Origin: Gordius sp. MW1
Lineage: Eukaryota > Nematomorpha > Gordioida > Gordea > Gordiidae
Length of the DNA stretch: 64,000 nt
Direction of reading: 5' to 3'
Assembly: GCA_964036665.1 (NCBI GenBank)
Contig: OZ038533.1
Span: forward strand, 5,912,413-5,976,412
Part shown: positions 4,440 to 55,400 of the stretch, piece by piece
Position numbering within the stretch: position 1 is the stretch's first letter
Layout of the letters: every line of letters begins with the position of its first letter
Notes under the pieces: generated by a model
What the model was told of the DNA's origin: nothing
Seen by the model: the letters and a program-made list of their open reading frames with translations, nothing else
The model's database searches: none
Translations under genes and position numbers: made by a program

Positions 4440-5167
4440 TAGAGACCTGCACGGCCCGGCCCGGCCCGCGGGCCGGGGATGGGCGGGCTTTGGACTTTAA
4501 AAAAAACGGGCCGGGCTTGGGCGGGCCGACATATCAAACGGGTCGGGCCTAGATTTGGCAAGGCCCGTTAAAAGCTCGTTGCAAAATAGTTAATTTTTTA
4601 TTTGTGTAGTAATAAATACTTTAAAATAATTACAACTTAAACAAAGACAAACGTCTTATAAATGAACTCCACCAATATCTTGGGGAATGTGTGAAGGCTT
4701 CGATCTTATAAAATGGTGGAAAGGCAAAGAAGCTAAGTAAATAAGGTAAAATCAATATAACCTTTAATTAGGTACCCAAAATTATCTCATTTGGCATTTT
4801 TGGTTTTAAGTATCCCGGCTACAAGTGCCACTAGTGAACGAAATTTCTCATAGGCTGGTCGCTTATTAGAAGAGAGAAACCGGATTAAGACCGGAAATAA
4901 TTAACGATTTATTGTTTTTACATTGATGTTTTTAACATATATTACTGAATATTGAATTAACTTTTTAATAAAAAAATAACAATCGTTTAAAAATTTGCAA
5001 AAAAAAATTTCTACGGGCCCGGGCCGGGCCTGGGTTTTGCAAAAATTGTTTAGGGCCGGGCCCGGGCCAAATTTTTCTTTTTTCAGCGGGCCAGGGCCGA
5101 GCCCGGGCCTAGAAATTTTTGAAGCGGGCTTGCCGACCAAGCAAAATAGGCCCGTTGCAGGTCTCTT
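4440..5167 (+). mobile_element. Non-autonomous hAT element, copy 1 of the TAGAGACCTGCA family
   Basis: The terminal repeats read TAGAGACCTGCACGG at the left and, inverted, GCAACGGGCC...GCAGGTCTCT at the right. Subterminal sequence is dominated by GGGCCGGGC blocks. At about 4812-4890 the plus strand still encodes the hAT C-terminal dimerisation signature, reading [14 protein letters not shown] and then AGRLLEERNRIK, with a TAG in place of the usual aromatic residue. It is therefore an internally deleted relic of an autonomous hAT. It is closely related to 57687-58522. No clear target duplication is left here. Confidence 0.75.
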
Positions 5168-9720: not shown

Positions 9721-10754
9721 ATGTTTCTACATTGTTATTCAGCTAATTAAGAAAAAAGTCCAAGTAACGCTTTAAAAACAAATAATAAATAAGCGATACC
9801 GAATTTTAAGATATTTTTTTCATGTAAGATCATCATTCGATGTATATATAGGTATCAAAAATTATAAAGTATAAAAGATGAAATTAATTAATGATGATTT
9901 GCTTCCCCCTTCCCTTTTTCCACTCTTTCTCAACCGAGGGGGGGCCACCCTCTTTCATATGCAGGGTACGACCATGCTATATGGTATTTGATTTTTATAT
10001 ATTAGATTATTTACATTGTGGCATTTTACAGTATACATCTATGACGGAATTTGTTGCATTTTACAGTATCCACGTTTACATTTGAAACATTAACGTGTAG
10101 AAAATCTACGTAACGCAAAAGTGTTACGTTGCTGCCATCTAGCGGATGTCACATATTCAAACAGGTTGTTAATACTTTTAGGGCTACGGCGCCGCAACTA
10201 AAATCCTCAAAGGGCTTTTGCATTTAACTTTACATTGTATATATAGGGGGAAAACATTATAATTTTTAAAGCTTCATAAGGAAATAAAGAGTATATATTT
10301 CTTCAACACCTAACATTTATACCAATTTGTTAGTATAATAAAGAAACGTTTTTAAGAGAATTTGTTAACTCGGTTTCAACGCAAATCGTACAAATGTTTC
10401 GCCTTTTACTAAACATTTCCGTGCGGAGGAACAAATGAGAATTTAAAGCTTATTTTTCAAACCCTTTTTAGGGATAATATTTTAAATAAATAAGAAGGTT
10501 CTAACCAGATTATTGCTCTTTAGAGAATGTAATGCCATTACTCTCAAAAGTATGAGGATTAAAATCAATAAAACATGCCCGAGTGTGATTTTAGCCCTTT
10601 ACACGTCCATAAAGAATGGCTAAAATTTTTAACAAATTGCTACATTATATGCATCTCACAACCCAAAATTAACCAAATCTAATATGGTAAAGTCTAAATA
10701 GTTTTTCTACCAGTTCCTAATTAATTTAAAACACTTATTTAATTTTAGTATAGG
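9721..10754. other. AT-rich sequence in the palindrome loop, no gene recognised
   Basis: Part of the loop between the inverted-repeat arms. A short palindrome (GTAACGCAAAAGTGTTAC) lies at about 10110-10128. No coding frame is supported. Confidence 0.35.
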
Positions 10755-19655: not shown

Positions 19656-22439
19656 GGCATGATATTATCTGCTACTTTAACCTACACGACCAATATTTAT
19701 CTGTAGAAACTTGACATTTTGATTATATTAAAATAAGGTCTAGGAATTTGTAATTTTTATTGACTTTTAATTCGAAAATCTGACGGGGCAGGGCCTTTTT
19801 AGATTAAAAGCAATATGTGATGCATCATTTAAAATTTGATTAAATGATTTAACAGACCTATGAATTGAAATAGTCTCTATTTAGACAGAAGTTTAATATT
19901 GTCTTTAAATTTAAAGTTACCATTAACAAGAAGAGATCATTTCTATAACTTTGATATGAAAACTTAATTCATTGATTGTCCTTATTAGATGAAGTATAAA
20001 AATTGTTAAGGCCCGTTTACTTTTCTAACTTGGAATAACATAAGGTCGAAGGTGATAAAAATGAAAAAAATAAAAAAAATATTTTTTTTATATTTACACT
20101 TTTACCCTTTTTAATATTTTTAACAAAATATTGACTAATGGTTTTGTAAAAAAGACATAAAATTTGTTTTCTGAAACAACGTAACTACATTCATTTTAAG
20201 GTAAAAGGGACAAGGCAAAAAAAATCAATAATTTGTTTTTCAAAGCTAACACCTTCCCTTCAGCTAAGCCATTTAGGGATTTAAAGTTAAGAGAAAAAAA
20301 CAAATAAATTTTAGCTTTTAAATATGGCCAGTTTAAACTTTTTTAATCCTACCTAAATAGTCTATATCTATATACTTCTAACTTTTTCTATTGTCTACGT
20401 TTTAATATAGAAATAGAAATTTCTACCATTCGGCTAGTATTGTTTTATGGTTTAATAACAATAAATTCTAATTACTCAAAATATATCCTGAGGTAATTAT
20501 AATTTGTTGGTGTTAAAAAAATTAGTTGATTTTAAGAGTTTAATATCAAATTTCTAATTAAGACCTCACGCCATCCAAATAAAGAAATCATAAATGGCTT
20601 TTTTATTTTAAATTTTAATGAATTAGACAAACACCCAATATTACTATATATAATAATCGATAAATTCTCGTGATTGCTTTGCTAAATATGAATAGCTTAG
20701 ATTACAAATATGATATATAGGTTGCAATATCACATGCGATCTTTTTTTAATTAGTTACTATTAATTTTAACTTTATCATTATATTAATGGGTATTCTCTA
20801 AGGTTGAAATAAATAATATGCAAGAAAAGTATAATTGCCAATCCTAAATGTTATGTTTATTGTGACCCATCAACCTTGATACCTGGATGGACTTATATAT
20901 GATATGACTAATGATACACTATAATTAATCAAAGCTTTTTTCTCATAGCTTGGAATAGTGCACTAAGATTAATTGAAGAGCGTTTTTTATAAATGTTTTC
21001 GTTCTTGTATCTTTTTATTAATTCTACTATATATTTAATACTTTTTTTTAATAAAGCATATTTCAAAAAAAAAAATTAAAGAGCAAGCAGTTTTTTTATA
21101 ACTTTATGTTACACCACCCCCAACGAATTTTAAACAATTTGCAATCACACAGGGCATACAAAAGACATCATTTAGATTGGACAAGGCGTAACCAAACTGA
21201 TTTTCTCACTTATTCTCATTCACTCCATGATACCATTTTAATTAAAAATATAATAGAGATCGACAGAGGTGTGGGGTCTTTGGAGACCCCATTACGTTTT
21301 TTGAACTTTAAATAAATCCAATAAGTTGAATCGTAGTAGATGGATTGAAAAGGGGGGACGGGGAGAAGATTTTCTAAAGGGGTTGAGTAGTTGATCAAAA
21401 GGTAAGAGGAACGAAATGTATTGAATCAGGGGTAGGTTATGATCCTTAAATCGATAATTATTATTAAGGCTATTCCAATAATGATGTCGTTTCATTTTTC
21501 ACCCAAGGCGGTCCCCTTACCTCTTCCCTAAATAAGAGCGCATCATTATGTTATGTAGTATTCATCTTTCGCATTAAAAGGTGTTGTGTATGTTCTATCC
21601 CCCAAACAATATTTTAGTTATTGGTAATAAATGCAATTATTTGAAAAATACTTATTCGTCAATTTAAATTTATGGGCTTCAATGTGTTCTTATAGTGTTT
21701 GAAGGACTGTTATGGGTTGCCTCAATTCTACCACTCACAAAGAAATCAAGCCAAAGATCAAAATTAAAAGTAATGTAGGATTTTCCAAAATACATAAATT
21801 AGAATAACTTTTCACATCAGAGTGTATTTTAAATTGTAAATCATCTTTTTATCATTAAAATGAAATCATATTTTTTATTCAGTATATGTTTATCATCACT
21901 AAGGCCATCTTGTAAAACTTACCTTAAAACTATAGTTTCGTTAAATACTAATTAATTGCTTTGCAATTTATGGGCTCGCTTTTGGTTGTTATCCGTTCAA
22001 CTTGTAATTTTTAAATAATTGCCGTGGAAGTGGACTTATGCTTCTGTTAAATAATTTTTTATTATTTTTAGATTGGAATTACAACATTCTCACCTGCGTA
22101 TTTAAGCTATGAGTCTATTGATAATAGTTTATATTGATTTTTAAAAATAATCCTCTGATCATGCATGGTAAATTAGCTTTTATCTCAATCAATGTGTAAC
22201 ATTCTGATCTTAACGTAAGGGTTTAAATGCATTAATCGCGTATGCAAAATTTGATACTTCCTTTTAATTGTCTAAATTTAAATATTTTATAAATAAATTA
22301 TAATTAAATTAACTCAGGGCTACGTATTGTATTATATCAAATTCGAATTTGAATTGCTATGTGCGCTTTAATCCAAAGTAATAGTGCATTTGCAATCTTT
22401 TTATTTAATTAATAGCCCAACACATCTAATAGTTAATAT
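19656..22439. other. Long AT-rich stretch, nothing recognised
   Basis: No supported gene, RNA or clear repeat. Short frames here lack conserved text and look like chance. Confidence 0.35.
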
Positions 22440-31654: not shown

Positions 31655-33755
31655 GACCAGGGGCTTCGCCCCTGATCCGACTTGGGATTTATTTTACGTT
31701 TTGGTACATTCGCTTATTTTGGGGTATTGTTTTTCCAAAACTCATCTATACTCCGTTTAAACGTAGCACATTTGCTATGCAATTTATGGGCGAGATAGGT
31801 GGGAAGGGGCGAGAATGCTTATACGGGGGGGGGGGAGGGTGCAATGGTCAAGCAGGGAGTCAGATAATACTTGTACAACGTTATAATTGTTTTTTTACAT
31901 ACACTATTTTAATATTTAATTTACCTCAATAAATAAAGTATTCACAAATGTTTTATAGCAGTTTATTATTACAAAAATTTAGTTTTTTTAAGTATTTTTA
32001 TGCAAAAAAAACGTAGTTAACATTTTGCATTTTATACTTTATTTGGAGGCATTGGTTTTCTTTCACTTATTTTAATTTATCAAATTCTAAACGGATCAAA
32101 AATATTATTTATGGCGAAGGGAAAGCAAAGAAGGGATGACCATGGAAAAGCCAATAGTCATCCTTCCAAAAGGTACAACTTTAAATTAAGAGTTAAAGCG
32201 GATTCCTTGTAATATACAGCTCAAAAAATCATTTTGATGCTTTATAAATCATAGGTAAACAAATTTGGTGTAAGTGACCCATAATTTGAATAATGACTAT
32301 AGACTCTATTCAAATCATGAGCTTATGTATAGTAAAGCAACTATGAAATAGGAACATTTTACCTCTAGCGAGTAAAAGAATGGATTATGGTGCGATTATT
32401 AGATGCGACGGTGAAATGAAGGTGAAAATTAAGCACTATATTTAGGGTTAGGTGTTTTATTAGCAAAAAGGGACGGGGCAAAGCAATTTGACGGCCAAAT
32501 AGCAGCGAATAATTATAATCTAGAGAAAAAAATTTGATCTTAATCTCACTTTGGCCAGTGGTCATTTTTTTCATTGGTCAGTAACCAGCAGACGTCCAAA
32601 TAACCTATAGTTATAATATAGAAGAAAATTTGATGTACACTTTAGCCAGTGGTCGTTTTTTCTAATGGTCAGCAGTCAGCAGGTCAAAAAGCGTCTAAAT
32701 ACATAAAGGCCAAATATTAAAAAAACGAGAAAATTTTCCTATCACACTTTGGCCAGTGGTCATTTTTTCCATTGATCAGCAGACGGCCAAATAGCCTATA
32801 ATTATAATATAGATAAAAAAAATTGATATACACTTTAACGAGAGATCATTTTTTCTAATGGTCAGCAGTCAGTCAGAAAGCGTCTAATTACATAACATAA
32901 GGGCCAAATATTACAAAAACGAAAAATTTTTCCTGCACTTTGGCCACTGATCATGTTTTCTAATAATCAGCAGTCTGCAGGTCAAAAAGCGTCTAAATAC
33001 ATAAGGGACAAATATTTATAAAACGAAAAATTTCTAATCACACTTTGGCAAGTGGTCATTTTTTTCATTGGTCAGTAGCCAGAAGACGGCCAAAAAGCCT
33101 AATATATTATAAATGCAAAATGTATGTTAAAGAATAAAAGAAATTTACAATGCAGCAGATATACAATTAAGAGAGCAATTAATCAAATTAATAAATTGGC
33201 CGTGGTCAGATAAATCAAAAGTAAGCAATGGCCATCATAATTTGCAGGGAATTATTGTATATAGCCCGTTATGCAATCATCCGTTAAAAAACAATAACCG
33301 ACAAATAGGCAAAAAAAATCACAAAACATCAAATATAAATAGCTATTAACCAGTATTTTGGCTTTTGGGGTTAGATAAAGTAGAAGTAAACAACGGTCAT
33401 CATTAATTTGGCTCAAATTATTTAGCCAGTTTTGCAAACATCCGATATATAGCAACAATCTAGACAAGTTGCAAAAAGATGTTATGTATAAAGCTAATCA
33501 GTCGAGCCCATAAACAATAATGGAATTTGGGCTCGGGCGAGGTCAAAATTAAAGCCAACCAGCGGTCATAGTGTTGCGAAAGCAAAATAAAAGTCATTCA
33601 CAGAAGCATAAGACCACAGCCATTAAAATTCCTTATAAGTTTCCACGTCAATTATGCAAAAATTACGAGTTGGACAGGACACTCACTCACTCACGACGAC
33701 AACGAAAAGAGAGCCCATAAATTGCTGAGCAAATAGCAATTAATAAGTGGATTGC
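31655..33755 (-). mobile_element. HINE/DINE-1-like element (non-autonomous Helentron), copy 3
   Basis: Minus orientation. The 3' hairpin AGGGGC-TTC-GCCCCT is at 31659-31673. The 3' inverted repeat (TTTGCTATGCAATTTATGGGCGAG) is at about 31770-31794. The core (about 32540-33100) has several diverged tandem units with CACTTTGGCCAGTGGTCATT and GGTCAGCAG. The 5' end is a related GAGCCCATAAATTGCT sequence near 33712-33727. Layout and motifs match copies 1 and 2, but this one is longer and more diverged. The G-rich block at about 31820-31840 corresponds to the C-rich block before the 3' repeat in the other copies. Confidence 0.65.
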
Positions 33756-36766: not shown

Positions 36767-36771
36767 TTTAA

Positions 36772-36903
36772 TGTAGAGAGGTAATTGGAGTGTGAAGTGC
36801 CTCAGGGGATACGTTATTTACCGATGTGTTGTCAATCAAATTATCGTTAATTGATTGTAACTTATATATGCGTTTGATTTACACGTTTTACTCACTTTTC
36901 TAT
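36772..36903 (+). repeat. 5' LTR, first part
   Basis: Matches 42226 onward in the 3' LTR up to CTTTTCTAT. The rest of the LTR is displaced by the HINE insertion and resumes at 38606. Confidence 0.9.
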
Positions 36904-38605
36904 TAATTGCTATGCAATTTATGGGCTCGTTTTTTGTTGTCCGTCCGTCCGTCCGTCCGTCCGTCCGTCCGTCGTCCGTTACCCTCCCTATCTATTTCCA
37001 TTGGGTATATTAGGTTATCGCTTTTTTAAATTAATGCATGAGAAAGAGGTGCCCCACCCCTCATCTCTATCTCCCTCGCTGTGTTATTTTTTAAATTAAT
37101 GCATAAGAGGTCCCCCACCCCTCATCTCTATCTCCCTCGGTGTGTTATATATAAGATTTGTTAAATTATCTATTATATAATAAACATAAATAAAAGTTGT
37201 TTACTTTTAATGCTATGCAATTTAACTAGTTATATAATAAACATAAATAAAAGTTGTTTACTTTTTAATTGCTATGCAATTTAACTAGTTTTGGGGTTAG
37301 AATCCCGGAGTTTTTTTGACTCTTATGATTGTTCTTGTTACTATCATTGATAATAAGAATTTTTGGCCGTCCGCTGGCTGCTGACCAATGAAAAAAATAT
37401 TGGCCAAAATGTGAATCCGAGTTTATTTTTTCGTTTTTTTTGACTATTATGATTGTTCCTGTTTCTACCATTGCTATTATGACTTTTTGGCCGTCCGCTG
37501 GCTGCTGACCAATGTTATATAATAAACATAAATAAAAGTTGTTTACTTTTAATTGCTATGCAATTTAACTAGTTTTTGGGTTAGAATCCCGGAGTTTTTT
37601 TTGACTCTTATGATTGTTCTTGTTACTATCATTGATAATAAGACTTTTTGGCCGTCCGTTGGCTGCTGACCAATGAAAAAAATGACCATTGGCCAAAATG
37701 TGAATCCGAGTTTATTTTTTCGTTTTTTTTTGACTATTATGATTGTTTGTTACTACCATTGCTATTATGACTTTTTGGCCGTCCGCTGGCTCCTGACCGT
37801 TGGAAAAAATGACCATTGGCCAAAATGTGAATCGAAATTATTTTTTTCGTTTTTTTCTGACTATTATGATTGTTCCTGTTCCTACCATTGCTATTATGAC
37901 TTTTTGGCCGTCCGCTGGCTGCTGACCAATGGAATAAAATGACCATTGGCCAAAATGTGATTCAAAAATTTTTTTTCGTTTTTTTTTTACTCTTATGAAT
38001 TTATATCCACTTTTACCGTGTGCTGGCTGCTGACCAATGGAAAAAAATGACCATTGGCCAAAGTGAGCATCAAAATTTTTTTTTCGGTTTTTTTGGCTAT
38101 CATTGACTTATAGAGTATCTGTTGGTACTGACCAATAGAGAAAAAGTGACCATTGGCCAAATTTTTGATTTTTTTAATTAAAAATTGTTCAAATTCAACA
38201 AAAAATTTCTCCCAACAATTCTGCAAATTCTTAACATTGTGTTGTTTTATAATATAATGTTTGTTAGACCCATAATCACTAAAGGCCATAAAAACTAATG
38301 TAATACGCAACTAGATGCAAACCTTAAATCTAACCCTAACCCTTGCCTATTTTACATTTTGCCTATATTACATTTTGCCTATATTACATTTTGCCTATAA
38401 TGGAAAATTTGTATAAATAATTAATTAATCATTAGGCATTTAATACCCCCCTATAGGCATTCTCGCCCCTTCCCACCTTTCTCGCCCATAAATTGCATAG
38501 CAAATATGATACATTTATACGAAGTACAGATGAGTTGTCCCCCCTTCCCTTCCTCTCTTCCCTTCCCTTCTCCCCCTTCCCACGAGGGCCGAAGGCCCGA
38601 GTTTT
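36904..38605 (+). mobile_element. HINE/DINE-1-like element (non-autonomous Helentron), copy 1, inside the 5' LTR
   Basis: Starts TAATTGCTATGCAATTTATGGGC. The inverse of this, GCCCATAAATTGCATAGCAA, lies at 38484-38503, about 80 bp before the 3' end, giving the asymmetric terminal inverted repeats described for Helentrons and HINEs. The 3' end is a hairpin GGGCC-GAA-GGCCC (38586-38598) followed by GAGTTTT. A (CGTC)n microsatellite lies at about 36941-36975. The core contains about six ~110-125-bp units with TTTTTGGCCGTCCGCTGGCT and GACCATTGGCCAAA, and a 17-18-bp tandem TTTTGCCTATATTACA at 38350-38398. No coding capacity. Comparison with the intact 3' LTR shows insertion between two T residues and no target duplication. 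Confidence 0.85.
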
Positions 38606-38655
38606 TATTGTATCGCGTCGAAACATGTAGTAAATAAAGTTTCCCAGACATAACA
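38606..38655 (+). repeat. 5' LTR, second part
   Basis: TATTGTATCGCG...CAGACATAACA, matching the last 50 bp of the 3' LTR with two or three substitutions. Confidence 0.9.
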
Positions 38656-38656
38656 G

Positions 38657-38671
38657 TGGCATCGTGAAACC
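38657..38671 (+). promoter_or_regulatory. Candidate tRNA primer-binding site
   Basis: TGGCATCGTGAAACC begins one base after the 5' LTR. A primer site must start TGG to pair with the CCA end of a tRNA. I cannot name the tRNA. Confidence 0.5.
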
Positions 38672-38680
38672 TACGCGGAG

Positions 38681-39301
38681 ATGCAGAAATATAAAACAAC
38701 GGCTAACATCGACGCTTTTATAACACAATTTGAGCTATTCCTAGGGAGCAATAAGACGGAGACAGATGAGCAAAAAGCAGCTCTATTATTAACCAGCCTT
38801 GATGGGGAGGCATTCCAATTAATACTAGAGGATTATAGACCTCAGGAATCGACAGGAATTACATATGAAGAAGCTAAAAATCGGTTAAGAAAATTATTCC
38901 TGAGGAATTCATGCGCGAGGGCAAAGAGGTATAAATTCTCAAAGGTTCGACAAGGCCAGGGAAAGACGATAGACGCGCACGCTAATAGACTCAAGGCCGG
39001 AGCTAACAGCTGCAACTTCGGAAACGAAAAATTGCAGAACAGAATCGTCGACCAATTTATTATAGGATTGCGCTATAGAAGCTTACAGGCGAGACTGTTG
39101 GCAGAAAATGACATCAAATGGGACCGCCTACGAGAGCTGGCGTTAACGGCCGAGACGATAAATGGGGGGGCTAAGCACCTTGCAAGACGGGTCCGAAGAG
39201 GCGTGGAGCGTAGTGGCGAGACGAGAAGCGTGGCCTGGGCCGGTCCGAATTCCCAGGTTAAACCAGGCTTTAGATGTGTTAACAGTAGATATATATATTA
39301 A
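38681..39301 (+). CDS. gag: Gag polyprotein of the Gypsy element
   Basis: 206 codons beginning MQKYKTTANIDAFITQFELF. The middle follows the Mag-type retrotransposon Gag pattern: ALLLTSLDGEAFQLI, YEEAKNRLRKLF, an Arg/Lys-rich RAKRYKFSKVRQGQGKTID, then CNFGNEKLQNRIVDQFIIGL and LLAENDIKWDRL. This is the capsid-like gag domain that assembles the particle. The usual Cys-His zinc knuckle near the C-terminus is not visible in this frame. The frame continues into what should be the Gag-Pol junction and then stops at 39299-39301. The ATG chosen is the first in frame after the primer site. Confidence 0.8.
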   Translation: MQKYKTTANIDAFITQFELFLGSNKTETDEQKAALLLTSLDGEAFQLILEDYRPQESTGITYEEAKNRLRKLFLRNSCARAKRYKFSKVRQGQGKTIDAHANRLKAGANSCNFGNEKLQNRIVDQFIIGLRYRSLQARLLAENDIKWDRLRELALTAETINGGAKHLARRVRRGVERSGETRSVAWAGPNSQVKPGFRCVNSRYIY

Positions 39302-39541
39302 TAACGAGTTATTCCAATGCTCCTTCCCCCATCTTCGCGCTACGGTATCGTGAATACCGGCGCGAAGATGGGCGAAAGAGATCCCACGCAACAAGGAGCC
39401 CGTCCCGACATTGTACGCGTACGGCCACGAGGAAAAAAGATCGTAGCCAAGGTGCAAGCCGATATCCGAATGGGTAACACGAGAAAACAGCTGTCGTTGT
39501 TGTTAGCAGACGTAGCTGGGCCGCCGCTGTGCGGGATCGAT
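39253..39541 (+). pseudogene. pol: Gypsy aspartic protease region, disrupted
   Basis: One frame gives LTVDIYINNELFQCSF, which normally leads straight into the catalytic Asp-Thr-Gly motif. Here the next bases form an inverted repeat (39331-39369), and the motif appears in a different frame as NTGA, with Asn at the catalytic Asp position. The end of the domain is recognisable as LSLLLADVAGPPLCGID. The protease is therefore non-functional both by frame and by loss of the catalytic residue. Confidence 0.7.
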
Positions 39542-40461
39542 TAGATCCAAGAATTCGAGCCCGAAATCTGGCGTCGAATACGTTGGAACTCGACAGCTGC
39601 GGCAGAACGGTTTGCGGTCAATTATGTGGAAAGACTAAGGATACCAAGTCCGCGCACGTGATGAAGCAATGGGATGGCCAGCTAAACGAAATTCCGAAAG
39701 CAGTCAAGGGAATAACGGTGGAAGTACCGTTAAAAGAGGGCATAGATCCCGTATTTACCCCAAAAGAAGGGTGCCGATGGCGTGAAAGAAAAAAGTAGAA
39801 GAAGAGCTGAATAAATGGGTCAGAGAGGGGGTAATAGAGCCAATCGATTTCTCAAGATGGGCCAGTCCAGTGGTACCCGTAAAAAAAGCGATGGGAGTCT
39901 GCGATTATGTATAGACTACCGGTTTACGATAAATAAATACTCACAAGGTTTGTTTTACCCTTTGCCCAAAATCGATGATTTATTAAATAAACTCGATAAC
40001 GCGTGTTGTTTTACGAGCTGGACCTAACTAAAGAGAACCGACAGCTTGAATTAGGTCCAGAGACGAGCCAACTCAAGGGCTTAGTTAAAGTTAACCGGAT
40101 GCCGTTTGGCTTAAATTGTGCCGTGGCAATTTTCCAAAAAACAATGGATCAAATATTAGGAGGCATGGAGGGGGTAGCGGTATACATCGATGATATACTA
40201 ATTGCAAGGGAAACGGAAGAAATCCACAACGAGCGGTTACTCAAAGTCCTAGAAACGTTACAAAAGTGGGGGTTCGTGCCAAACATTGCCAAGAGCATCT
40301 TGTGGGCAAAGGAAGTAACATTTTTGGGATACTTAATAAGTAACAGGGGGATTCAAATCAACGACAATAAAGCCGAACTAGTCAAGCAGTGGAAAAATTT
40401 AACAAACAAAAACAAAATAAAATCCTTCCTTGGGTTAACCATATTTTTCAAAGTTAATTAA
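39542..40461 (+). pseudogene. pol: Gypsy reverse transcriptase, frameshifted
   Basis: Fragments in three frames. The first covers AHVMKQWDGQLNEIPKAVKG and VPLKEGIDPVF. The second contains KSDGSLRLCIDYR and YPLPKIDDLLNKL. The third (from about 40017) contains NRMPFGLNCAVAIFQKTMDQ, the polymerase box YIDDILIA with its two catalytic Asp residues (about 40180-40203), and VTFLGYLIS. The order and spacing match the finger, palm and thumb of Gypsy reverse transcriptase. Frameshifts separate the frames, so the protein cannot be made. Confidence 0.85.
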
Positions 40462-40930
40462 GGACAACGCCAAAATCGTACACCCGATTCAGAAACTCAT
40501 GAAAAAAACGTGATGTACCACTGGGGTGGAGAACAACAAAGCGCATTCGAAGCCATCAAGTCCGCGCTTACGAAAGCCCCCGTACTGGCATACTTTAATG
40601 AAGATTGGGAGACTGGCCTGGTCGTAGACGCCTCTGGTACAGGCTTAGGGGCCATCTTACAGCAACGAGCACCAGGGGAGAATTGGAGAGTGGTGGCCTA
40701 TGCTTCAAGAGCGTTAAACGATAGCGAAAGCCGGTATACGATGATCGAACGAGAGGCGCTTGCGGTGGTTTATGGACTAAAAAAGTTTAATGAATATATA
40801 CAAGGACGAAACGTTACTATTATGTCAAAGCAAAAAAGGCAAGGAACAATGGTCACCACGTCTAACTAGGTGGGCGCTCATGGTATCAGGCTACACGACC
40901 AAGTATGTGTACAACAAGGGATCCAAAAAC
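40462..40930 (+). pseudogene. pol: Gypsy RNase H
   Basis: A frame from 40510 to 40869 reads AFEAIKSALTKAPVLAYF, then VVDASGTGLGAILQQ with the first catalytic Asp, then YASRALNDSESRYTMIEREA with the catalytic Glu. This is the standard Gypsy RNase H that degrades the RNA of the replication hybrid. A frameshift after the MSKQKRQG region separates it from the integrase. Confidence 0.85.
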
Positions 40931-42060
40931 GCGGCAGATTTCTTGTCTTGAAAACCGAACGAAAAACGCGTATCAGGTTAGCGAGGAAATGCCAGAAGAC
41001 TCGACGAATCCGTTTATATCATTGGACGTAGTAAGACAACACACCTTGGACGACCCGGGGCTGCGACAATTAAAAGAGTGGATTAGGGGTAAACAAAACA
41101 AATGGTCACGTATGGGCTAAAACGCTCCTACCAAAAACACCTGCCAAAGTTACACGAAGCCAAAAACATAATATTTTACAAAGGACGACGAATATTAATT
41201 CCGGCTAAGTTACGAGAAGCGTACACCAAAGATTACATAGGGGCCACGTGGATAGCAAGCGAATGCAAGAAGTGGCGGGGCAGTATATATGGTGGCCTAC
41301 TCTCGACGATGACTTATTGAGCGTAGCGAAAGGGTGCCGGAATTGGAATTACACTGCCGCGGGAGCCAAGAAGGCACCGTTGATAGAGTGTCAACCTAGC
41401 AAACCGTGGGTTCAAGTACATATCGATATCATGGGTCCCCTCAAGGGTAAGTCATACCTGATGGTGGACAATAGCTCGAAATGGGTAGAAGTGTTCAAAT
41501 TAGAAGACACCACAGCGACCACCATTATACAAAACTTGCCGAACGTTTGCTAGATTTGAAAATCCGCCATGGTTAATATCAGATAACGGCCCGCAATTCT
41601 AGGGCAGGAATTAGAGAATTTTTGCAAGATGAGAGGGATTAATCAGCGATGGACAGCTCCTTACCATCCTGCCTCTAACGGTCTGGCAGAAAGATATGTA
41701 CGATTAATTAAAGAAGCCATTATTAAAAACGAGTCGGCAGTAGGGCTAAGTAGATTTTTGGAAAACTACAGATCTACAAAACACCCCACAACCAATCGGT
41801 GATGCTAAAAAGGCGTATATGCGAACCGAATGGGAGGTATTGAGGGAAACCGTACCACAACAATTTTAACGTAGGAGACTTGGTTTGGGTAAGCAGCTTT
41901 TTGGGACCAAGCAAATGGGTAGAAGGCACGATAAAAGCCAAGCGCAGGTAGTCGTTTTTACGATGTATGGGTACAGGGAAGAAAGCACCACCGACACGTG
42001 GATCAAGTAAGAAAACGAAAAATCCTGGATTGGACCACACTGGGGCAAAAGAAGGGGTGG
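40931..42060 (+). pseudogene. pol: Gypsy integrase, frameshifted
   Basis: The N-terminal zinc region is split: AYTKDYIGATW in one frame and QYIWWPTLDDDLL in another, with the second zinc-binding Cys pair degraded (CRNW). The catalytic core shows the first Asp in HIDIMGPLKGKSYLMVD, the second in LISDNGPQF (about 41575-41600) and the Glu in ASNGLAER (about 41672-41695). The C-terminal part contains GDLVWVSSFLGPSKWVEGTI and ends in a KHHRHVDQVRKR-like block. All three catalytic positions survive, but stops and frameshifts abolish the protein. Confidence 0.8.
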
Positions 42061-42211
42061 CGGGAACAAGTGCTTTAAGGGAATAAATGCAAAACCGGGG
42101 AACAAGTGCTACAAGGGAACAATGCAAAACCAGTCAGGAACGCCTAGGGAAGAACCTAGATACCCGCAGCGTAGTCGGAAACCGCCAGCATTCCTTAAGG
42201 ATTTTGTCTGT

Positions 42212-42225
42212 GAAAAGGGGGGAAC
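42212..42225 (+). promoter_or_regulatory. Polypurine tract of the Gypsy element
   Basis: GAAAAGGGGGGAA directly before the 3' LTR (with a C at 42225), where plus-strand DNA synthesis would be primed. Confidence 0.75.
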
Positions 42226-42410
42226 TGTAGAGAGGTAATTGGAGTGTGAAGTGCCTCAGGGGGTACGTTATTTACCGATGTGTTGTCAATTAAATTATCG
42301 TTAATTGGTGGTTGTAACTAATATATGCGTTTGATAAACACGTTTTAGTCACTTTTCTATTATTGTATCGCGTGGAAACATGTAGTAAATTAAGTTTCCC
42401 AGACATAACA
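42226..42410 (+). repeat. 3' LTR (intact, 185 bp)
   Basis: TGTAGAGAGG to AGACATAACA. It carries the undisrupted sequence TTCTATTATTGTATCG at the place where the 5' LTR has the HINE, and so serves as its empty site. Confidence 0.95.
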
Positions 42411-42415
42411 TTTAA

Positions 42416-52443: not shown

Positions 52444-55400
52444 TTATTGTGATGTTTTGAGAAGTGAAACATCTAAAGGCAGAGTGGAATGGATAGAGAG
52501 TATAAATGGTCCCTCTTGCCCAGGCATATATGTTGAAGGTATTATGTGGTAAGTGCCTGGCTTAAAATTGTCATCTTTCAATATACAATATCCAGATCTA
52601 ATAAATTATATTAACATGAAAAAAGAATAAATAATAAACATTAGAAAATTTATTTTTAATTGATGAATTATATTCATATGAGAAGACTAAATTAAGTAAT
52701 CACAAATTATTATTGATATTTAGATTAATTATAATTAATCTATGTATGATTTGTTTTGTTAAATTCTTATCATTCTGCTATTTTAATTCCGATTCAGTTT
52801 ATATTTATCCTAGTAAAGCAGGGAAAAAGCTTAAAGAAATCGTTTTAAAACAAAATATTGGCCCATCATTCATGCTTTAGAACTTTTAATTGCCATGCAA
52901 TTTATGGGCTCGTTTTTTGGTTGTCCGTCCGTCCGTCCATTGTCCGTCCATCCCTATCTATTTGCATTGGGTATATTAGGTTATCGATTTTTTAAATTAA
53001 TGCATGAGAAATAGATGCCCCACCTCTCATCTCTATCTCCCTCGCTGTGTTATTTTTTAAATTAATGCATAAGAGGTGCCCCACCCCTCATCTCTATCTC
53101 CCTCGCTTTCGGGCGGGGTCGGGTTTTAATTGCTACGTTAAATTAATGCATAAGTATATCTATTCGTTTTTGAATTGGGTAACATTGATATTAATTGCTA
53201 TAATTACCTATGCCCTCCACTACAAGGGCCTATGCCTCTACTGATATGGGTCCCTGTGCCCCTACAAAAGCCTATGCCTCTATTAATGTGGGTTCGAACC
53301 CCGGCGAACGTTCTGAATTGCTGGTTCGATTCCCGGAGAGGGCAAATTTTTTTTTATTTTTTAAATTAAATTAATATATTTTTCCTGTTACTACCATTGA
53401 TAATATGACTTTTTGGCCGTCCGCTTGTTCTATTATTGTTTCATTTTATTATATAATAAACATAAATAAAAGTTGTTTACTTTTAATTGCTATGCAATTA
53501 ACTAGTTTTTGGGTTAGAATCCCGGAGTTTTTTTTAAGACTTTTTGGCCGTCCGCTGGCTGCTGACCAATGAAAAAAATGACCATTGGCCAAAATGTGAA
53601 TCCGAGTTTATTTTTTCGTTTTTTTTGACTATTATGATTGTTCCTGTTACTACCATTGCTATTATGACTTTTTGGCCGTCCGCTGGCTCCTGACCGATGG
53701 GAAAAATGACCATTGGCCAAAATGTGAATCGAATTTATTTTTTTCGTTTTTTTTGACTATTATGATTGTTCCTGTTCCTACCATTGCTATAATGACTTTT
53801 TGGCCGTCCGCTGGCTGCTGACCAATGGAATAAAATGACCATTGGCCAAAATGTGATTCGAAAACTTTTTTTTTCGTTTTTTTTGACTATTATGAATTTA
53901 TATCCACTTTTACAGTGTCCTGGCTGCTGACCAATGGAAAAAAATGACCATTGGCCAAAATGTGATTCGAAAATTTTTTTTTCGTTTTTTTTACTCTTAT
54001 AAATTTATATCCACTTTTACCGTGTGCTGGCTGCTGACCAATGGAAAACTATGACCATTGGCCAAAGTGAGCATCAAAATTTTTTTCCGTTTTTTTGGCT
54101 ATCATTGACTTATAGAGTATCTGATGGTACTGACCAATGGAGAAAAAATGACCATTGGCCAAATTTTTGATTTTTTTAATTAAAAATTGTTTAAATTCAA
54201 CAAAAAATTTCTCCCAACAATTCTGCGAATTCTTAACATTGTGAATAATATAATGTTTGTTAGACCCATAATCACTAAAGGCCATAAAAACTAATGTAAT
54301 ACGCAACTAGATGCAAACACTAAATCTAACCCTAACCCTTGCCTATATTACATTTTGCCTATAAATGGAAAATTTGTATAAATAATTAATTAATCATTAG
54401 GCATTTAATACCCCCCCCCTATAGGCATTCTCGCCCCTTCCCACCTTTCTCGCCCATAAATTGCATAGCAAATATGATATATTTATACGAAGTACAGATG
54501 AGTCGTCCCCCCTTCCCTTCCCCTCTTCCATTCCCTTCTCCCCCTTCCCACGAGGGCCGAAGGCCCGAGTTTTTTGTTAAAGCAACTTACATTTGTGTCA
54601 TTTACTAGCAAGATTTTTTAGTGGGTGCGCAAAACTTACCTATAGGAACCGGAGGAGATTTTATTAGTAACGGCGCCAAGATTTTTATCCATGGTTAGCA
54701 TGTCAATGCCCACGTTGTATTCCCTTTTAAACAAGAATGAAAAGACATGATTTTAAGCTTGCAACTAATAAAAAAATACAAAAAGTATCAATCCAAAGGC
54801 ATTTTTATAGCACTATTAAAAATGATCCCCTAGGAAAAACAACCTATACATTTGCACTGTTAATTTAATAAATCTTCGATAAAACGAAATCTATATTATA
54901 AACTTAATAAACTTTATAATATAATTATAATCTTATAAACTTTATAACATAATTATAATAACGGAGTTAATAAATGAGCGTTACTTTGGAGCCTTTAGAC
55001 TAAGGAGTATTTGTTGTTTGGCATGAGCATTTTCATGGGTAAGAGTTTGAATTTTATAACAGGGATTAGAGGGGTAAGAGTTGGGATGGTTGCCACACCC
55101 ACCCGCGGTTACACCTTTCCAACTATTCGTAAACTAAAGGGTAAATAATTTCAAAGAATAAAGAAAGGGGGATTTTTTGTAAAAAATTTTTATAACCATT
55201 TTAAAGATGAAACTATTATAAATTTAAAACGATAACGTGCTTTAGCAACCAATGAGGTAATGTTCATGGCCTTAGCCAAAGGGGGGGGGGGGGGCAGGGA
55301 GGGGCGGCTACCCCCCTCTAAATCAAAATGTTTTTTCAAATTTATTAAATTATGGCATTATAAAAAATGATCATTTTGACCCTCCCTAAATCATTATTGT

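Follow-up and report, generated by a model that had tools for sequence, protein, structure and literature searches.

Within the 64,000-nt window analysed here (the whole stretch, G000:C7:5912413-5976412, of a 212-Mb genome of 12 contigs), a 1702-bp sequence is very probably a non-autonomous Helentron (HINE) whose target was the 5' LTR of a Gypsy-type retrotransposon that had integrated before it. A nested HINE is ordinary in kind, and the junction data that come with it sharpen an open question on the ends of Helentrons. In the parts of the literature considered here, these ends, and any duplication of the target, have been unclear since DINE-1 because insertion goes into Ts (PMC2374699, PMC4067079). 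Thousands of copies, some nested in repeats, supply empty sites, and thus make the question decidable by counting. Published junction statistics of this sort were not found in searches of open-licence papers. The features of the window are these:

36767-36771, no strand: TTTAA, the left-hand target duplication of the Gypsy-type element, with its right-hand partner at 42411-42415
36772-42410, + strand: Gypsy-type retrotransposon, two LTRs enclosing disrupted pieces of gag, RT and RNase H
36772-38655, + strand: 5' LTR of this retrotransposon, divided in two by the HINE
36904-36926, + strand: 5' subterminal inverted repeat arm, holding the palindrome AATTGC-TAT-GCAATT (36905-36919)
36905-38606, + strand: probable HINE, 1702 bp, AATTGC...GAGTTTTT; starts at 36903, 36904 and 36906, with equal length, match the empty site equally well
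36939-36979, + strand: (GTCC)n microsatellite near the 5' end of the HINE
37199-37224, 37258-37283 and 37542-37567, + strand: three inner copies of the 5'-terminal motif
37302-38002, + strand: central repeats of about 127 bp
38343-38399, + strand: 16-bp tandem repeat TTGCCTATATTACATT
38484-38506, + strand: 3' arm of the subterminal inverted repeats; its 23 nt are 96% complementary to those at 36904-36926
38586-38598, + strand: 3' palindrome GGGCC-GAA-GGCCC, followed by GAG, the last conserved bases
38602-38606, + strand: TTTTT, five bases of the filled site that the empty site is missing, all on the 3' side if the start is 36905
38681-42200, + strand: degraded remnants of the retrotransposon's gag and pol, in which the matches to gag, RT and RNase H each lie in a broken frame of their own
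42226-42410, + strand: 3' LTR, 185 bp, with the empty site (CTATT up to 42361, ATTG from 42362)

Alignment of the two LTRs confirmed that the 5' LTR is interrupted by 1702 bp of HINE and that the 3' LTR is continuous, with an uninterrupted CTATTATTG at the position matching the insertion. The retrotransposon copy is flanked on both sides by the 5-bp duplication TTTAA. We take it to be Gypsy-type from its gag, RT and RNase H domains and from general knowledge; a fourth broken coding piece was without a match in the domain scan.

What does one filled and empty pair allow? The filled site reads CTATT / AATTGC...GAG / TTTTTATTG and the empty site CTATTATTG. Four 1702-bp placements of the element, from 36903-38604 to 36906-38607, are equally compatible with the two, so the pair does not fix the boundaries to within one base, as the earlier note had stated. 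By itself the window pair fits a target duplication of 0-3 bp (TTA, TT, TA or T), and the absence of duplication that had been read from it does not follow. Nor is insertion 'between two T residues' demonstrable, since the target TT is common to both junctions.

Counterparts at four further loci give five filled and empty pairs in all. In the window LTR pair the surplus in the filled site is TTTTT. At locus L003 a HINE lies within another HINE, with ATGTT to the left, the empty sequence ATGTTTATTATA and a surplus of TTTT. At L077 the host is the endonuclease-like frame of a Helentron; here the left flank is GGGTTTT, the surplus is TTGTT and the empty counterparts are GGGTTTTATTAATAACGG in L081 and CCGGTTTTATTAATAACGG in L080. 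The host sequence at L063 is Helitron-like (Helitron-helicase-like by eye, with 37 of the 41 listed search matches falling on the L063 site), and the filled site has three more Ts than three of the four paralogues inspected and two more than the fourth. Finally, at L005, in an AT-rich repeat, the surplus is TTTAT against all four empty copies among the matches listed, or TTT if an AT slip is allowed. The joined sites of L002, L004, L006, L008, L041, L042, L050, L061 and the HINE at window position 52888 were also searched, and the best 40 of 388 or 616 candidates were other repeats; L007 was left out of these searches.

The empty site has TT at the junction in all five pairs, a T-rich target in which the next base is A in the window, L005 and L077 (TT|A) and T in L003 and L063 (TT|T). 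There are never more Ts to the left of AATTGC than the empty site has, and the surplus can therefore be placed wholly on the right. It then comes to 3-5 bases after the conserved 3' GAG (2 against one paralogue), mostly T. The five pairs suggest that a short T-rich tail of variable length is added at one side of such elements. On these alignments L003, L063 and L077 leave no room for a constant duplication of at least 3 bp.

The genome-wide counts describe the same two ends. The 5' counts cover the 6542 exact 5' ends that have one T or more. At least two Ts are present in 6421 of them (98%): 3561 have two, 2860 have three or more, and 121 have one. Among 100 listed 5' ends with exactly two Ts, the preceding base is A in 90, G in nine and C in one. 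The 3652 exact 3' ends divide into 23 with no T, 358 with one and 3271 with two or more. The loci inspected individually are a non-random sample, 30 of them being the first 30 places on contig C1. Of the 20 distinct exact 5' ends in them, 15 have two Ts and no more, and 18 have a T at -4, against a T background of 32% in the loci (binomial p ~1e-7); this -4 tabulation takes exact 5' motifs only and counts in the one-T 5' junctions of L042 and L007. By eye, five imperfect 5' ends have T at -4 in four cases and A in one (window 21954). At 41 distinct 3' ends the T-run varies from 1 to 7 with a mode of 4, and is followed by A in 31. The tandem junction at L007 (GGGT|AATTGC), with its one T, was considered as a rolling-circle joint and dropped: compared by eye, none of the three listed one-T 5' ends preceded by G on C1, on C2 and in the initial 10 Mb of C3 follows an exact hairpin.

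Is TT duplicated on insertion? A 2-bp TT target duplication was first proposed for D. yakuba DINE-1, and would have the element end in GAG plus 0-3 bases. It fits four of the five pairs exactly (the window, L003, L063 and L077), TT being common to both junctions and a duplication of up to 2 bp therefore compatible with these four sites; the L077 surplus, TTGTT, has TT at its end. L005 (TTTAT) as it stands does not fit. It is the one direct piece of counter-evidence, and itself open to the AT slip that would make it fit. The 3' ends also argue against the proposal. In 358 of 3652 a single T is followed by another base, and because of these an obligatory TT duplication appears unlikely. Of the 100 one-T 3' ends listed, 82 have A as the next base, 12 have C and six have G; had a second T decayed, C should be the favoured base. 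Overall we consider a TT duplication unlikely. The consistent duplication in other copies that the earlier note had named as evidence against its reading was not found, yet a TT duplication agrees with four of the five pairs. Its claim of no target duplication thus stands for 3 bp or more, through the other copies; for TT it is likely, through the one-T 3' ends and L005, and at no point through the window pair.

The order of the two insertions is given by the LTRs. Both LTRs of one retrotransposon copy are identical at integration, and those of the window now differ at nine of 182 aligned bases (4.9%), close to the 5% estimated earlier. A genome search with the 3' LTR gave at least 40 matches, the window's own 3' LTR included, and the 40 listed are all unbroken across the site. 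In eight of eight other LTRs inspected at the insertion site there is no insert; five have exactly CTATTATTG and three differ from it by one base. CTATTATTG is thus most likely the ancestral target sequence. Alternatively, the HINE arrived within the retrotransposon, and the 3' LTR later lost it or was exchanged by recombination. The LTR pair taken alone is compatible with this, but the same TTTAA duplication stands at both flanks and none of the 40 LTR matches listed (the window's own split LTR is not among them) is split at the site; we regard it as very improbable. Since the insert occurs in one LTR only, the HINE is the younger of the two elements at this site, as the earlier note had concluded; the sequences support an age below that of a retrotransposon with 4.9% LTR divergence, and nesting thus yields a relative date as well. 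The longest genomic relatives of the window HINE are 94-97% identical to it, one long partial relative is 98% identical and others go down to 88%, values that would suit a HINE younger than the LTR pair without proving it.

The anatomy of the element is that of a HINE. It has subterminal inverted repeats, the 5' arm of which sits at the element end, and a short palindrome near its 3' end. The longest ORF starting with ATG, GTG or TTG is 105 aa, and judged by ORF length the element is non-coding. The region of the 5' palindrome folds more stably than shuffled sequences (z -2.92); the 3' palindrome, folded as single-strand DNA, gives a 5-bp stem whose stability does not exceed that of shuffled sequences (z -0.51). 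The 3' hairpin word occurs at 4890 places (2427+2463) in the genome at up to two mismatches, and its reversed control at none. The three inner copies of the 5' motif (37199-37567) look like earlier 5' ends taken in.

Could this be a derivative of a canonical Helitron, with 5' TC, 3' CTRR and insertion at A|T? Helitron_like_N matches are plentiful: of 714 candidates 150 were scored and all matched, giving at least 150 in the genome, and L069, the one long frame inspected, has the Helitron-type motif QKRGLPHAH. The HINE ends in AATTGC and GAG, however, its target is TT, it has subterminal inverted repeats and its 5' end matches an RGSPH-type element, so that this origin is barely credible. A MITE of a cut-and-paste transposon would share the small size, inverted repeats and high copy number, but the 3' repeat arm stops about 95 bp short of GAG, the ends are asymmetric with a palindrome at the 3' end and a constant duplication of at least 3 bp is lacking, which makes it scarcely conceivable. 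Both were rejected on the ends and the placement of the repeats.

The Helentron reading has a coding side. Helentrons proper, the coding kind as opposed to the window HINE with its short frame, have a Rep/helicase and a fused endonuclease. A Helentron-type Rep pattern is found at 22 genome places: 15 read QHRGSPHAH, one reads QKRGSPHAH, five have TGA at the serine and one has arginine there. Two candidates, L076 and L077, have QHRGSPHAH, that is, the serine in RG-S-PH-x-H where a Helitron has L, along with a PIF1 helicase and parts that resemble an endonuclease. In L076 the matches to Rep and PIF1, spread over two frames, exceed the cut-off; the matches to the PF03372 endonuclease are all below the Pfam cut-off (L077 in two parts with E 8.4e-4 and 1.1e-3, L076 with 0.038). 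The 5' end of L076, TTATT-AATTGCTATGCAATTTATGGG, has 22 bases identical to the HINE, including the T before AATTGC. L077 is a second Helentron, 68% identical to L076, with its endonuclease-like frame broken by a HINE. Neither has one unbroken frame, and the two are candidate partners only. No 3' end with the HINE hairpin was found in the Helentron stretches inspected (L076-L081), so the link to a partner rests on the 5' end. At L077:6789-8949 a HINE sits inside a Helentron, its own kind of mobilising element. Predicted coding RGSPH-type copies are thus present in the same genome, one of them sharing the HINE 5' end. On anatomy, TT target and these copies with their weak endonuclease matches, the assignment to Helentron-type elements is well supported, and the identification made in the earlier note is borne out.

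A Helentron Rep/helicase/endonuclease would mobilise the HINE in trans, its endonuclease nicking the target behind T-[A/G/T]-T-T, in many cases with A as the next base. The displaced single strand, beginning AATTGC, would join the target 3' end at the nick. The 3' cut would fall somewhere in the T-run past the hairpin, at no fixed base, so that a few bases of the flank downstream of the donor would come along and form the variable 3' tail; each copy would have such bases, since donor and target would be cut at one type of T/A site. We propose, tentatively and with somewhat less than even confidence, that Helentron ends are asymmetric and set by the endonuclease, with a fixed 5' end after T-[A/G/T]-T-T and a 3' end without a fixed base, where donor flank follows GAG. 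The surpluses TTGTT and TTTAT fit carry-over of donor flank better than they fit a fixed T tail, but the three other surpluses are pure T, and both mixed ones may be later mutations. If the proposal is true, a single nick rule accounts for the variable Ts and for the old dispute over duplication.

Much of this resembles known systems. As they are presented in the portion of the paper considered here, the HINEs of Metaseiulus occidentalis (Thomas et al. 2014, PMC4067079) also have palindromic subterminal inverted repeats, a 3' palindrome, microsatellite or tandem repeats in some copies, a T-rich target, no target modification found and a variable number of terminal Ts. The distances differ: the repeat arms are 23 nt here and 12-15 nt there, the 3' arm is about 95 bp from the end as against 38-60, and the palindrome is 3 nt from the last conserved base as against 8-35. 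In the same portion, the authors leave undecided whether the Ts belong to one or both ends, and propose that the endonuclease cuts at varying places within the Ts flanking the donor. Here, in contrast, the surplus can be placed wholly 3', and in two of the five pairs it is not pure T.

The Drosophila DINE-1 (Yang and Barbash 2008, PMC2374699) is likewise described, in the sections of that paper considered, with subterminal inverted repeats, a GTCY microsatellite, central repeats and a 3' hairpin. It inserts at TT in WTT, with the same ambiguity between no duplication and TT duplication; its ten empty sites were interpreted as WTT, eight as WTTTT. Here too T at -4 is favoured, with A, G or T between. 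By its described layout, in the sections consulted, Cg_HINE of Crassostrea gigas (PMC7492417) is alike in its left module with a GTCC-type microsatellite (in several), its central satellite-like repeats and its right module of subterminal repeat and palindrome, and also in its TT target with no duplication found.

Other related sequences were seen in passing. In the window, a second HINE of the same family lies at 52888-54569 (+), with the flanks AACTTTT / TTTTTTGTTAAAG, and is about 88% identical to the first across two main matching parts; among the candidates scored, no empty site turned up for it. An older, diverged HINE at about 31660-33741 (-) has the palindrome GGGGC-GAA-GCCCC in place of GGGCC-GAA-GGCCC, and its 5' junction is TTATT once more. 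An isolated HINE-like 5' end, AATTGCTTTGCAATTTATGGGCTCG, is present at 21954 (+), preceded by CTAATT; no 3' end with a GGGCC-type hairpin was matched near it. The window also has a U5 spliceosomal RNA gene or copy at 10366-10476 (+; Rfam RF00020, 82.5 bits). Elsewhere on the same contig, at G000:C7:5279508-5284264, four HINE 5' ends on one strand, spaced 1579, 1579 and 1575 bp apart, resemble a tandem HINE array. On contig C4 of G000, between 53374 and 140496, ten single-T 5' ends (ATAATTGC), all on the + strand and inside 87 kb, resemble a local amplification.
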